Shown here: positions 43,907-47,753 of the stretch, in pieces
How positions within the stretch are numbered: the stretch's first letter is position 1
Layout of the letters: the number at the start of each line of letters is the position of its first letter
Source: Ignavibacteriales bacterium
GTDB lineage: Bacteria > Bacteroidota > Ignavibacteria > Ignavibacteriales > Ignavibacteriaceae
Direction: 5' to 3'
DNA length: 64,000 bases
Assembly (NCBI GenBank): GCA_015709675.1
Contig: CP054182.1
Location: 2,707,448 to 2,771,447, forward strand
The notes under the pieces: generated by a model
What the model was told of the DNA's origin: nothing
The model's input: the letters and a program-made list of their open reading frames with translations, nothing else
The model's database searches: none
Program-made: the position numbers and the translations under genes

Positions 43907-45502
43907 ATGATCACAAATTATTTTTTCCTGCTCAGGCTCGCAATGGAACTGCAGGAAAAATTACAGAATACTGCTCTGATAGACTGCTTTTCTCAGGAAA
44001 AGGATTCCTTAATAATGAGTTATAGTTCAAATTCAGGAGAAATTCATCTTGAGTTTTCAACTCATTTCCCTGGTACCTTCCTGCTGTTCAGAGATCATTT
44101 TTCGAGAGCCAGGAAAAATACCGTTAGTTTTCAGACCATCCCTTCCGGTACGGCTTTCCGGGGAATTCGCATGCACCATTCTGACCGGATACTGGTTCTG
44201 GATTTCGAAGATAATTATGCAATAACTCTCTTTATAAGGGGAGCTAAAACCAACGCCATATTTGTAACCGGTACCGAAGCAATCCCCTTCCGCAAATCTG
44301 ATGAGAAAATTGTTTCTGAATTAAAGCGCTTGTTACAGAACCCTCAAAAACAGGAAGAATTTTCAGATTTAGATCAGATTTCCTTTATTGACCAACTTAC
44401 GCCCGATGACCCCCGGCTTGGCAAAGAAATAAAAAACGAGCTTTCAGTAAGAATCAATGAGTCGGGAGACCCCGAATCGGAGTTGAGAAAAATCATCTCC
44501 GGTATACTTCATGGCGGATTTCGCTTAGCTAATACTCCTTCAGGATATTCTATTGTCCCTGAGGCGTTCCTCTCTGCAAACCCGGAGGATCCGCTTTTTG
44601 AAACTGCTGTTGATGCAGTTTCAGGGCTGGTAAAAAGAAGATTTGCTGAGGCAAGATTTCATCAGAAAAAGAACCAACTTATAAAGGAATATACCCGTCA
44701 GATTAAATCACTGGGTAAAATTGCTGATGATTTGTCGAATAGGTTAAAACTGGGAGACCGCTCTGCTCTTTATGAGAAATATGCTCAGGTTCTGCTGATG
44801 ACCCCTGACAAAAAAGAAAAGGGTCTTAAGGAGGTTTTTCTGCGCGATTACATGAACCAGGGGGAATTACTCAAAATACCTCTTGATGATAAGCTGGATA
44901 TCAATCAGAACACGAAAAGATATTTCGAAAAGGCAAAAGAAGAGAAGACCAGTTATGCTGAAGGTATTTTAAGACTGCCGGAAATAAAGGCCAAAATCAG
45001 TAAATTTACAACTGACTTAAAATTAATTGAGCAGTGTAAAAGTTTGAAAGAATTATCCCCGTTTGAGAAGAATGAAGCGGAAAACAAAAAATCCAAAACC
45101 GCGGATGATACAGTCAAATTTCGTGCTTTTCATATTGAACCTCACTACATTGTTTATGTAGGTAAAGACAGCCGCCAGAATGATGAACTGACCCTGCACT
45201 TCGCCAAACCGAATGATATTTGGATGCATGCCCGTGGTTGTCCCGGTTCACATACCGTTCTGAGAGATACTTCCGGCAGAAATATCTTCGGAAAAGATGT
45301 AATCAAGGCAGCAGCTTCAATAGCAGCATATTTCAGTAAAGCGAGAAACGCCAAATATGTTCCTGTCGCCTATACTGAAAAAAAGAATGTTGTAAAAAGA
45401 AAAGGAATGGAAGCGGGAAAGGTTCAGATGATGCGGGAATCAATTGTAATGGCCGAACCTGCTCTCCCTAAAAATGAAATTCAAAATAAAGGAGATCAGT
45501 AA
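43907..45502 (+). CDS. rqcH: NFACT-family ribosome quality-control factor (RqcH/Rqc2 homologue)
   Basis: This protein of 531 residues has the NFACT-N, coiled-coil, NFACT-R architecture of RqcH, which adds C-terminal alanine tails to stalled nascent chains on 50S subunits. [10 protein letters not shown] near residues 84-93 fits the conserved DR motif of NFACT-N. A long charged coiled coil spans about 240-365. The NFACT-R signature [19 protein letters not shown] is near residue 435. Older annotations call such proteins fibronectin-binding. It overlaps nagB by one base (TAATG). Confidence 0.9.
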
Positions 45503-46323
45503 TGAGATTAATTATTCAGCAGGATTACGAAAAAGTATCCAATTGGGCAGCACATTATGTCGCAATGAGGATAAAGGAATTTAACCCCAGCAAATCAAGA
45601 AGATTCGTCCTGGGCCTGCCAACAGGGTCCTCTCCCCTGGGGATGTACAAGCGTCTCATTGAACTAAATAAAGCTGGTGTGGTCTCATTCAAATATGTGA
45701 CTACTTTCAATATGGATGAATATGTGGGTCTTTCAGAATCTCACCCGCAGAGCTACCACTATTTTATGTTCAGCAATTTTTTCGATCATATTGACATAGA
45801 CCGCAGTTTTATTAACATTCTTAACGGAAATGCCTCTGATCTGAATGCCGAATGCAGAAATTATGAAAGCAAAATCAAGGATGCCGGCGGGATAAACCTT
45901 TTTATTGGAGGAATTGGAGCAGACGGGCATATTGCGTTTAATGAACCAGGGTCATCCCTCGGTTCAGTTACCCGGGTAAAGACGCTCACCAAGGATACCA
46001 TCATCGCGAATTCCCGCTTTTTTGATAATGACGTTCAGCAGGTTCCCAAAACTGCCTTAACCGTGGGTGTTAAAACCGTACTTGATTCTGAAGAGGTTAT
46101 GGTTCTAATAAGCGGTCATTCTAAAGCCCGTGCACTGGCAAAAGTGGTCGAAGAAGGTGTGAATCATATGTGGACCGTAAGTGCATTGCAGCTTCACCCG
46201 AAAAGTATCATAATCTGTGATGACGCTTCAACAGCTGAACTTAAGGTGGGTACGGTGAACTATTTTAAAGATATTGAGTCCCAAAATCTTGTTCCTGAGA
46301 CTCTGTTAACCGAACTACATTAA
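45502..46323 (+). CDS. nagB: Glucosamine-6-phosphate deaminase
   Basis: This enzyme converts glucosamine-6-phosphate to fructose-6-phosphate and ammonia. Its 273 residues match hexameric NagB. Catalytic residues are visible: Asp72 in [10 protein letters not shown], and Asp141, His143 and Glu148 in [16 protein letters not shown]. It follows the NFACT gene with a one-base overlap. Together with nagA on the opposite strand it forms the catabolic route for N-acetylglucosamine-6-phosphate. Confidence 0.95.
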
Positions 46324-46349: not shown

Positions 46350-46380
46350 TTGTAAAAAAGGCATAAATTACTTATTTTTG
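46350..46380 (+). promoter_or_regulatory. Candidate promoter of tRNA-Arg
   Basis: TTG at 46350-46352 and TATTTTTG at 46373-46380, an exact TAnnTTTG, are separated by 20 bp. Transcription would start a few bases before the tRNA 5' end at 46393. This is the best promoter match of this type in the window. Confidence 0.65.
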
Positions 46381-46392
46381 CAGGCTACAATT

Positions 46393-46466
46393 GCACCCGT
46401 AGCTTAATTGGATAGAGCATCTGACTACGGATCAGAAGGTTCGGGGTTCGACTCCCTGCGGGTGTA
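46393..46466 (+). tRNA. tRNA-Arg (anticodon ACG)
   Basis: A 74-nt cloverleaf. The acceptor stem GCACCCG/CGGGTGT has a G-U pair at its end and discriminator A. The anticodon stem TCTGA/TCAGA encloses loop CTACGGA, giving anticodon ACG. A34 of this tRNA is normally deaminated to inosine so that it can read CGU, CGC and CGA. No CCA is encoded. The enzyme for that change, TadA, is encoded immediately downstream. Confidence 0.97.
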
Positions 46467-46472
46467 CTCAGC

Positions 46473-46513
46473 AGCCCCTTATAAGAATAAAAGCATTATA
46501 AGGGGCTTTTTCT
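46473..46513 (+). terminator. Terminator after tRNA-Arg
   Basis: A 12-bp perfect stem AGCCCCTTATAA/TTATAAGGGGCT with an 11-nt loop is followed by TTTTTCTTTT. It lies 6 nt after the tRNA and before tadA. Confidence 0.88.
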
Positions 46514-46523
46514 TTTATGAACC

Positions 46524-46543
46524 GGATGCCTCCAGAGGCATCC
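46524..46543 (+). promoter_or_regulatory. Hairpin over the tadA ribosome-binding region
   Basis: GGATGCCT (46524-46531) and AGGCATCC (46536-46543) form a perfect 8-bp GC-rich stem with loop CCAG, ending 4 nt before the TTG start of tadA. There is no T run, so it does not look like a terminator. It would mask the translation-initiation region and may control tadA expression. Confidence 0.45.
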
Positions 46544-46547
46544 TCAG

Positions 46548-47030
46548 TTGGAAAGGCAGATATCTTCCTTGCTTTTTGAGGAAGTTCATTACAAATACAT
46601 GTTCAGAGCTCTTCAGGAAGCGGAAAAAGCCGCGGAGGCTGGTGATGTCCCCGTTGGAGCTATCATCGTAAAATCCGGGAGGATCATCGGGACGGGCTAT
46701 AATCAGATGAAATCTTTATCAGACGCGACGGCACATGCTGAGATGATCGCAATTACTGCCGCGGCCTCCTCGGTGCAATCCCAATTCCTTGAGGATTGTA
46801 CCCTTTATATTACCCTTGAACCCTGTGTAATGTGTACCGGCGCTATTCTTCTTTCCCGGATACCTGTAGTTTATTTTGCAGCTTTTGATCCGAAGTTTGG
46901 AGCAATGGGCTCTTTGTATAATATAGCTGCTGAAGGAAAAATGAACTTCATTCCCGAGATATTCTCAGGCATATATGAGAGAGAATCTTCAGAAATGCTT
47001 AAAAACTTCTTTTCGCAGAGGAGAAACTGA
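46548..47030 (+). CDS. tadA: tRNA-specific adenosine deaminase
   Basis: This zinc deaminase converts A34 of tRNA-Arg(ACG) to inosine. Zinc-site and catalytic residues are His63-Ala-Glu65 (HAE) and C93/C96 in LEPCVMCTGAI. The region DVPVGAIIV is also typical. The first in-frame start after a stop at 46518 is the TTG at 46548; the next Met (residue 18) would remove part of the first helix. It has 160 residues, normal for TadA. It lies 82 nt after its substrate tRNA gene. Confidence 0.94.
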   Translation: MERQISSLLFEEVHYKYMFRALQEAEKAAEAGDVPVGAIIVKSGRIIGTGYNQMKSLSDATAHAEMIAITAAASSVQSQFLEDCTLYITLEPCVMCTGAILLSRIPVVYFAAFDPKFGAMGSLYNIAAEGKMNFIPEIFSGIYERESSEMLKNFFSQRRN

Positions 47031-47090: not shown

Positions 47091-47753
47091 ATGCGAATAA
47101 TCTTATTTGGTTCCCCTGGTGTCGGTAAGGGAACGCAGGCGAAAATTCTGAGCAATCAGCTCTCAATTCCTCATATTTCAACCGGCGATATCCTGAGAGA
47201 GGCAGTAAAAAATAAAACCTCACTGGGGATGAAAGCAAAAGAAATCATGGATGCCGGTGAACTGGTTCCTGATGAGGTAATGGTTGGGATAATTAAAGAC
47301 CGCCTTACTGATTCTGATTGCCATAAAGGGTTTATTCTTGATGGATTCCCAAGGACCATCAAACAGGCAGAAGCTCTTAACAAATTATTCATTGAACTCC
47401 ATATTACAGACTTTTTCCTCATTTCGCTAGAGGTTAATGAGGAAGAAATTATCCGCCGTTTAACCAACAGACGTGCATGCAAAGTCTGCAGCAACATTTT
47501 TAATTATAACGATATCGAAGGCAGAGAGACTTGTCCCACCTGTGGAGCAGAAAATAGCTTTTATCACAGGAAAGATGACAGAGAAGATGTTATACGGAAG
47601 CGTCTTGAAGTATTCCAGTCCACAACAAAGCCCGTGCTTGAATATTTCGCTGATAAGCAGAATGTCATTAGGATAGATGCACTTGAAACGATTGATAATG
47701 TTACAACGACCATCGTTACAAGATTGAATTCTCTGAATTCTAACTTACGGTAG
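47091..47753 (+). CDS. adk: Adenylate kinase (zinc-type LID)
   Basis: This enzyme equilibrates ATP and AMP with two ADP. It has 220 residues with P-loop GSPGVGKGTQ (7-16), NMP-binding segment ISTGDILREAV, DGFPRTIKQAE, and a long LID carrying a Cys4 site (C130, C133, C148, C151) that should bind zinc. The LID Arg segment is FYHRKDDREDVIRKRL. Its 3' end overlaps the convergent ABC-ATPase gene by 14 nt. Confidence 0.96.
   Translation: MRIILFGSPGVGKGTQAKILSNQLSIPHISTGDILREAVKNKTSLGMKAKEIMDAGELVPDEVMVGIIKDRLTDSDCHKGFILDGFPRTIKQAEALNKLFIELHITDFFLISLEVNEEEIIRRLTNRRACKVCSNIFNYNDIEGRETCPTCGAENSFYHRKDDREDVIRKRLEVFQSTTKPVLEYFADKQNVIRIDALETIDNVTTTIVTRLNSLNSNLR

Follow-up and report, generated by a model that had tools for sequence, protein, structure and literature searches.

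Operons that combine tRNA genes with an mRNA are known from bacteria, such as thrU-tyrU-glyT-thrT-tufB of E. coli. The locus described here, located in a 64,000-nt stretch of an Ignavibacteriales genome (hereafter, the window), resembles the tufB type in that a tRNA gene precedes, on the same strand, a protein gene related to translation. Unlike that type, however, a terminator intervenes, a joint transcript is only a possibility, and the encoded protein acts on the tRNA itself: tRNA-Arg(ACG) is the substrate edited by TadA, an established relation on which a previous sequence-only reading of this DNA had correctly built. In Bacillus subtilis, tadA presumably lies in the order serS - tRNA-Ser - tadA - scr (SRP RNA) - dnaX - recR, a set of neighbors similar to that of the cross-phylum block described below; the window shows none of the neighbors in this set, only tRNA-Arg(ACG) with tadA. 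The serV-argVYZQ cluster of E. coli holds tRNA-Ser(GCU) directly upstream of tRNA-Arg(ACG), an order shared with the block. A direct check of K-12 shows how it differs: the Arg(ACG) gene is present four times, and tadA is missing from the cluster, being located ~120 kb from it, next to pgpC and mltF. The K-12 order, with Ser(GCU)-Arg(ACG) kept and tadA apart, agrees with a block whose break points vary from lineage to lineage.

A study of TadA and the decoding of CGN codons in Mollicutes (PMC3711424) deals with the same enzyme-substrate pair and with the same question of CGN-reading tRNAs. It treats the loss of tadA, and the terms operon, upstream, gene cluster, and synteny are not found in its main text. 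The regulation of tadA is little known, with a SPy_0208-tadA operon described for Streptococcus pyogenes in the consulted part of PMC11472039. Among the open-licence papers listed, no description was found of either the block or the Arg(ACG)-tadA pair.

In the window, tRNA-Arg(ACG) is located directly upstream of tadA on the same strand (Table 1), as the sequence-only reading had proposed; the tRNA is called by both ARAGORN and Rfam, and the frame that follows is TadA-like. The reading was also right about the close spacing and about a terminator between both genes, but its figure of 82 nt has to be replaced by 80 nt, counted to the TTG at 46548, or by 101 nt if the in-frame TTG at 46569 is the start.

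Table 1. Features at the tRNA-Arg(ACG)-tadA junction (positions within the window).
Feature	Position	Strand	Evidence and remarks
Glucosamine-6-phosphate isomerase-like gene, upstream	45502..46323	+	PF01182
-7 promoter element TATTTTTG (TAnnTTTG type)	46373..46380	+	Starts 20 nt upstream of tRNA-Arg(ACG)
tRNA-Arg(ACG)	46393..46467	+	ARAGORN; Rfam RF00005, 64.9 bits (46393-46466); anticodon loop CTACGGA; no encoded CCA
Intrinsic terminator	46473..46516	+	12-bp stem, 11-nt loop (hairpin 46473-46507), T-rich tail; -17.7 kcal/mol, z -3.58
Second GC-rich hairpin	46524..46543	+	8 bp, no T run; between terminator and tadA
tadA, tRNA adenosine-34 deaminase by similarity	46548..47030	+	Pfam, solved relatives, motifs; TTG start uncertain, 46569 also possible
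adk, adenylate kinase	47091..47753	+	PF00406, E 1e-52

The tadA translation matches PF14437 (E 9.7e-33) and PF00383 (E 7.4e-29), and the solved proteins closest to it, at E 1.5e-36 or weaker, are tRNA adenosine deaminases. It holds HAE and PCVMC, where HAE and PCxxC are what we take to be the zinc-site motifs of TadA. Its score against the NCBIfam TadA equivalog NF008113, 142.3 bits, is ~8 bits under the curated cut-off of 150, and this is the top family by ~98 bits. The protein is also the best TadA-like match in its genome (E 8e-103, to itself), the next two reaching 4.7e-20 and 8.9e-6. By this similarity, the gene is predicted to encode a TadA that deaminates A34 of tRNA-Arg(ACG). Editing of its own mRNA by TadA was considered and discarded, since the sole TACG on the plus strand of 46393-47030 is the anticodon. 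Among the Arg(ACG) anticodon loops of the class set, where some genomes are counted twice, 18 of 20 read CTACGGA and two CTACGAA; the part of PMC12255301 consulted gives YTACGAA as the motif for mRNA editing in bacteria.

Of the 44 tRNA matches above the Rfam cut-off in the genome of the window, a single one is Arg(ACG). The remaining Arg tRNAs of this set are CCG, CCU, and UCU, and no tRNA-Arg(UCG) was found among the 44. Inosine-edited Arg(ACG) is therefore the likely reader of CGU, CGC, and CGA, the three codons assigned to it by the CGN decoding rule in the consulted part of PMC3711424. Elsewhere in this genome (L294, C1:1452100-1452600), a second tRNA-like gene adjoins tRNA-Thr(UGU); its leader is very similar, its anticodon is unreadable (ARAGORN '???'), and it may be a decayed duplicate.

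The sequence-only reading had called the arrangement unusual, a view that did not survive comparison, because the close pair recurs under at least 22 phylum-level labels. A scan for the pattern tRNA-Arg(ACG) followed by a TadA motif, with one genome per species, yielded at least 118 loci, which were selected for closeness given that the pattern covers spacers of only ~8-68 nt. Among the matches listed, Arg(ACG) was verified within 400 nt upstream of tadA in 113 of 118 loci; the five unverified at that distance comprise L060, L126, L140, and L147, without a TadA match, and L136, where the tRNA is 3.9 kb away. A stricter limit of 150 nt without overlap retains 110 of the 118 listed. In addition to the phylum-level labels, the 113 pair loci include a Deltaproteobacteria label and unplaced metagenome-assembled genomes. 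The labels come from record titles, mostly of metagenome-assembled genomes, and some are probably wrong, since L038 is labelled Pseudomonadota, yet its phylum gave only 29 genomes.

Many of these pairs are flanked by serine tRNA genes. Among the matches listed, Ser(CGA) or Ser(GGA) lies within 500 nt downstream of tadA in 65 of the 113 scan loci and Ser(UGA) or Ser(GCU) within 500 nt upstream in 17, with both flanks present in 15; neither is found in 46, of which 17 hold Ser(GCU) downstream instead. In its fullest form, the block runs Ser(UGA)-Ser(GCU)-Arg(ACG)-tadA-Ser(CGA)-Ser(GGA), at times with Ala(CGC) or Arg(CCU) in addition. Ten neighboring proteins, taken from six loci, comprise serS in L041, L085, and L103, dnaX in L072, L100, and L143, ybaB and recR beside the block in L072, and two unrelated ones, and SRP RNA adjoins the block in 14 of the 20 loci searched. 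The order varies, from ACG-UCG-tadA near the window to UCG-Glu-ACG-tadA in L114 and L143. The block is far from universal, considering that 46 of the 113 listed scan loci have neither of these Ser flanks and that 58 of the 134 loci of a phylum sample (see below) are without either side.

From this block, the window holds Arg(ACG) upstream of tadA on the same strand. Upstream of its tadA there is no Ser(UGA), Ser(GCU), or serS, the two upstream genes being the PF01182 gene and, beyond it, an NFACT-like one. Downstream, Ser(CGA), Ser(GGA), SRP RNA, and dnaX are absent and adk is found, followed by an ABC ATPase gene. Neither Ser tRNA nor SRP RNA occurs anywhere in the window, whose only other tRNA gene is a Pro tRNA. 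We infer that the pair is a remnant of the block rather than a full member. At ~270 kb from tadA, the same genome holds Ser(CGA) and Ser(GGA) ~0.5 kb apart (L315; C1:2482020-2482106, minus strand, and 2482598-2482684, plus strand), a couple that is possibly another remnant of the same block.

In the class of the window, 134 of 149 genomes gave a TadA match, and the flanks of tadA were read in 77 of these 134 (86 loci, six of which have a flank shorter than 1 kb), so that 57 genomes with a match are outside this set. The sequence-only reading had named conservation of the pair among relatives as its check. Of the six family genomes, only that of the window has the pair within 500 nt and five lack a close pair; in one of these (G135), the ACG gene lies ~2 kb upstream of tadA. 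Across the 20 loci of families f1 and f2, Arg(ACG) is found within 500 nt upstream of tadA on the same strand in nine, and divergent in one more (G039). Arg(UCG) flanks tadA in 11 of these 20 loci, and both Arg genes are present in six; three have ACG without UCG (the window's genome, G073, and G079) and five UCG without ACG. Directly downstream, adk is found in 19 of the 20, and the isomerase-like gene upstream occupies the same place in none of the other 19. Other families show both genes or only one of them: f12 holds both Arg genes within 1.2 kb of tadA in all five loci read (on the opposite strand in three), four of the six f4 loci have UCG but no ACG within 1.1 kb, and f13 has UCG in two of four, one of them with ACG at 1.4 kb. 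In the remaining class families read, the fetched flanks contain no Arg tRNA, except for f18 (L358, 5.3 kb) and f23 (L365, 3.6 kb). Two class genomes of family f11 (L345 and L346) carry a tRNA-Met ~100 nt upstream of tadA in place of an Arg tRNA. Ser tRNAs are absent from the tadA flanks of all 86 class loci (77 genomes), so the pair could also have re-formed inside the class.

We consider it fairly probable that the pair is a local remnant of an old bacterial Ser/Arg tRNA-tadA block. By common descent, the ancestral block would have placed tadA in a group of serine and arginine tRNA genes, downstream of tRNA-Arg(ACG), and near the window it would have taken the form Arg(ACG)-Arg(UCG)-tadA-adk, complete or partial. 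Loss of Arg(UCG) from the genome of the window would then have left Arg(ACG) beside tadA. Today, tRNA-Arg(ACG) has a promoter motif and a terminator to itself, and tadA probably receives a low level of transcription from RNAs that run past this terminator. A TadA tree of 219 rows, in which genomes G013 and G006 may appear twice, gave 36 changes for ACG and 27 for Ser, with two independent pairs on supported branches; its resolution is too poor to take it as proof of descent or as a count of gains and losses.

The leader of tRNA-Arg(ACG) carries a TAnnTTTG sequence, presumably the Bacteroidota-type -7 element. In this genome, 13 of the 44 tRNA genes are preceded by a TAnnTTTG with its start at 8-30 nt from the gene, versus 0.36 expected. 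A promoter matrix learned from the tRNA leaders of the genome, and trained without tRNA-Arg(ACG), gives 7.5 bits at 46373 for the leader of this tRNA (p 0.02-0.05); from the end of the tRNA to 46600, the best score is 2.0 bits (p 0.6-0.9), and no promoter motif is found before tadA. The same difference is observed when relatives are added to the window's locus, with p <=0.05 in five of nine ACG leaders versus one of 14 gaps before tadA. The missing motif before tadA is nevertheless weak evidence, since the sensitivity of the matrix is limited: at a background rate of 5%, it recognizes 28 of the 44 tRNA leaders, and a check on protein genes, which comprised only four sites, gave two at p <=0.1 and three at p <=0.2. 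The matrix replaced a sigma-70 consensus scan, which was uninformative (six promoter-like sites versus 6.0 in shuffles). Several tRNA genes of this genome (e.g., L294, L295, and L303) are preceded by palindromes of the form CCCGA-spacer-TCGGG, possible REP-like elements; the REP-like TCCCGANNNNTCGGGA has no match within the window.

The terminator was also recovered by a scripted search, while a consensus scan missed it by allowing only loops of 3-8 nt. The second hairpin was considered as a dispersed repeat and rejected, there being no further copy within the window. A terminator between the nearest upstream tRNA and tadA is found in eight of 44 phylum-sample loci, in 11 of 113 scan loci (among the matches listed, where short spacers had been selected), and in four of 20 class loci (genome G053 being counted twice). 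As few spacers have one, co-transcription looks possible for most pairs; the window belongs to a terminator-bearing minority. Considering that a promoter motif precedes the tRNA and none is detectable before tadA, leaky read-through of the terminator, which the sequence-only reading had already put forward, is the only visible route to tadA; the arguments for such read-through actually taking place seem to us about evenly balanced. An alternative that is compatible with the remnant reading, and that we judge possible but rather unlikely, is independent transcription, where tadA would have an unrecognized promoter, the terminator would separate both genes fully, and the junction would involve no regulation. 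The strength of the terminator in the gap and the limited sensitivity for promoter motifs agree with this alternative, and separation does occur, as terminator-like hairpins are present in 25 of 190 tRNA-tadA spacers versus 1.4 in shuffles (centre genomes being in both the scan and the phylum sets); the top motif score in the gap of just 2.0 bits argues against it.

A different explanation is that a shared transcription unit holds the substrate tRNA and its editor together, so that the level of TadA follows that of tRNA-Arg(ACG). Such coupling would act by terminator read-through here and by direct co-transcription elsewhere, keeping tRNA editing complete and limiting stray mRNA editing. Both the coupling and this mode of action appear unlikely to us. 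They would be in line with the wide recurrence of the pair on one strand, with the 36 of 44 phylum-sample loci in which no terminator was found between the nearest upstream tRNA and tadA, and with the position of the sole promoter motif before the tRNA in the window. According to the consulted part of PMC13170351, more tRNA-Arg2 in E. coli lowers the global A-to-I editing, both of mRNAs and of the tRNA itself, and therefore the enzyme-to-substrate ratio is relevant. On the other hand, the changes in editing of S. pyogenes under stress are largely independent of tadA expression, as stated in the part of PMC11472039 considered.

The linkage of non-substrate tRNAs to tadA was assessed in a phylum sample of 134 tadA loci from six phylum groups, drawn by TadA alone and not for the pair. 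The sample covers genomes that gave a TadA match at the threshold (those giving none were 2/29, 4/33, 2/31, 5/32, 0/37, and 8/32), and the seven weakest matches of the 37-genome set gave no locus. The 134 also exclude five centre loci, fragment L177, the weaker second matches L178-L180, 17 short-flank loci, and the loci of the window's class in the 37-genome set (six low-numbered ones, L266, L282, and L287). Arg(ACG) lies upstream in 45 loci and Ser(CGA/GGA) downstream in 65, with both in 34 and neither in 58. Where one side stands alone, it is Ser in 31 loci versus ACG in 11 (binomial p 0.003, relatedness being ignored). An earlier count over five groups, under slightly different rules, gave ACG only in nine, Ser only in 22, and both in 23 of 113.

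By group, the numbers for ACG only and Ser only are 7/3 in G151, 0/8 in G161, 1/6 in G150, 0/4 in G157, 2/10 in G318, and 1/0 in the other classes of the window's phylum; the G151 sample speaks for coupling. In the G161 group, Arg(CCU) is upstream in 13 of 24 loci versus 11 of 24 for ACG, and in many of them it sits between Arg(ACG) and tadA. Closer to the window, UCG without ACG (5/20 versus 3/20 for the reverse), the four of six f4 loci with UCG and no ACG in their flanks, and the five of six family genomes that miss the close pair likewise argue against coupling. Apart from the G151 group, and from the surroundings of the window, where Arg(UCG) persists alongside it, the tRNA edited by TadA is therefore not the most lasting neighbor of tadA. 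Dosage matching, which the sequence-only reading had offered as the sense of the arrangement, is thus conceivable but not favored as the cause of the linkage, because tRNAs not known as TadA substrates (Ser CGA/GGA, Arg UCG, and Arg CCU) show about as tight a linkage to tadA, or a tighter one. We find even more doubtful the broader proposal that one transcript sets the editor:substrate ratio across phyla and shields mRNAs from stray A-to-I editing, with a leaky terminator fixing the ratio here, in a genome that without tRNA-Arg(UCG) would be wholly inosine-dependent for CGC and CGA.

Least of all do we believe in chance neighbors that met by rearrangement in this lineage, with no history or function, since the turnover in the window's family, with five of six genomes lacking the close pair, is outweighed by the f1 and f2 loci (ACG upstream on the same strand in 9/20, UCG in 11/20, and adk downstream in 19/20) and by the return of the same arrangement far outside the class. 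For one given tRNA gene in 4.2 Mb, the chance of lying on the same strand and at most 400 nt upstream is ~5e-5; since the pair was singled out only once it had been seen, what really argues against chance is that it recurs in other genomes.

The control of TadA levels is a live question, since TadA also edits mRNAs. As many lineages carry the enzyme gene on the same strand as its substrate tRNA, there are ready-made comparisons between genomes in which both genes are paired, have a terminator between them, or are apart. Beyond the pair, of which the window would keep a local remnant, the wider Ser/Arg tRNA-tadA block looks like an old bacterial gene order, and it may help the study of linkage between tRNA and protein genes.
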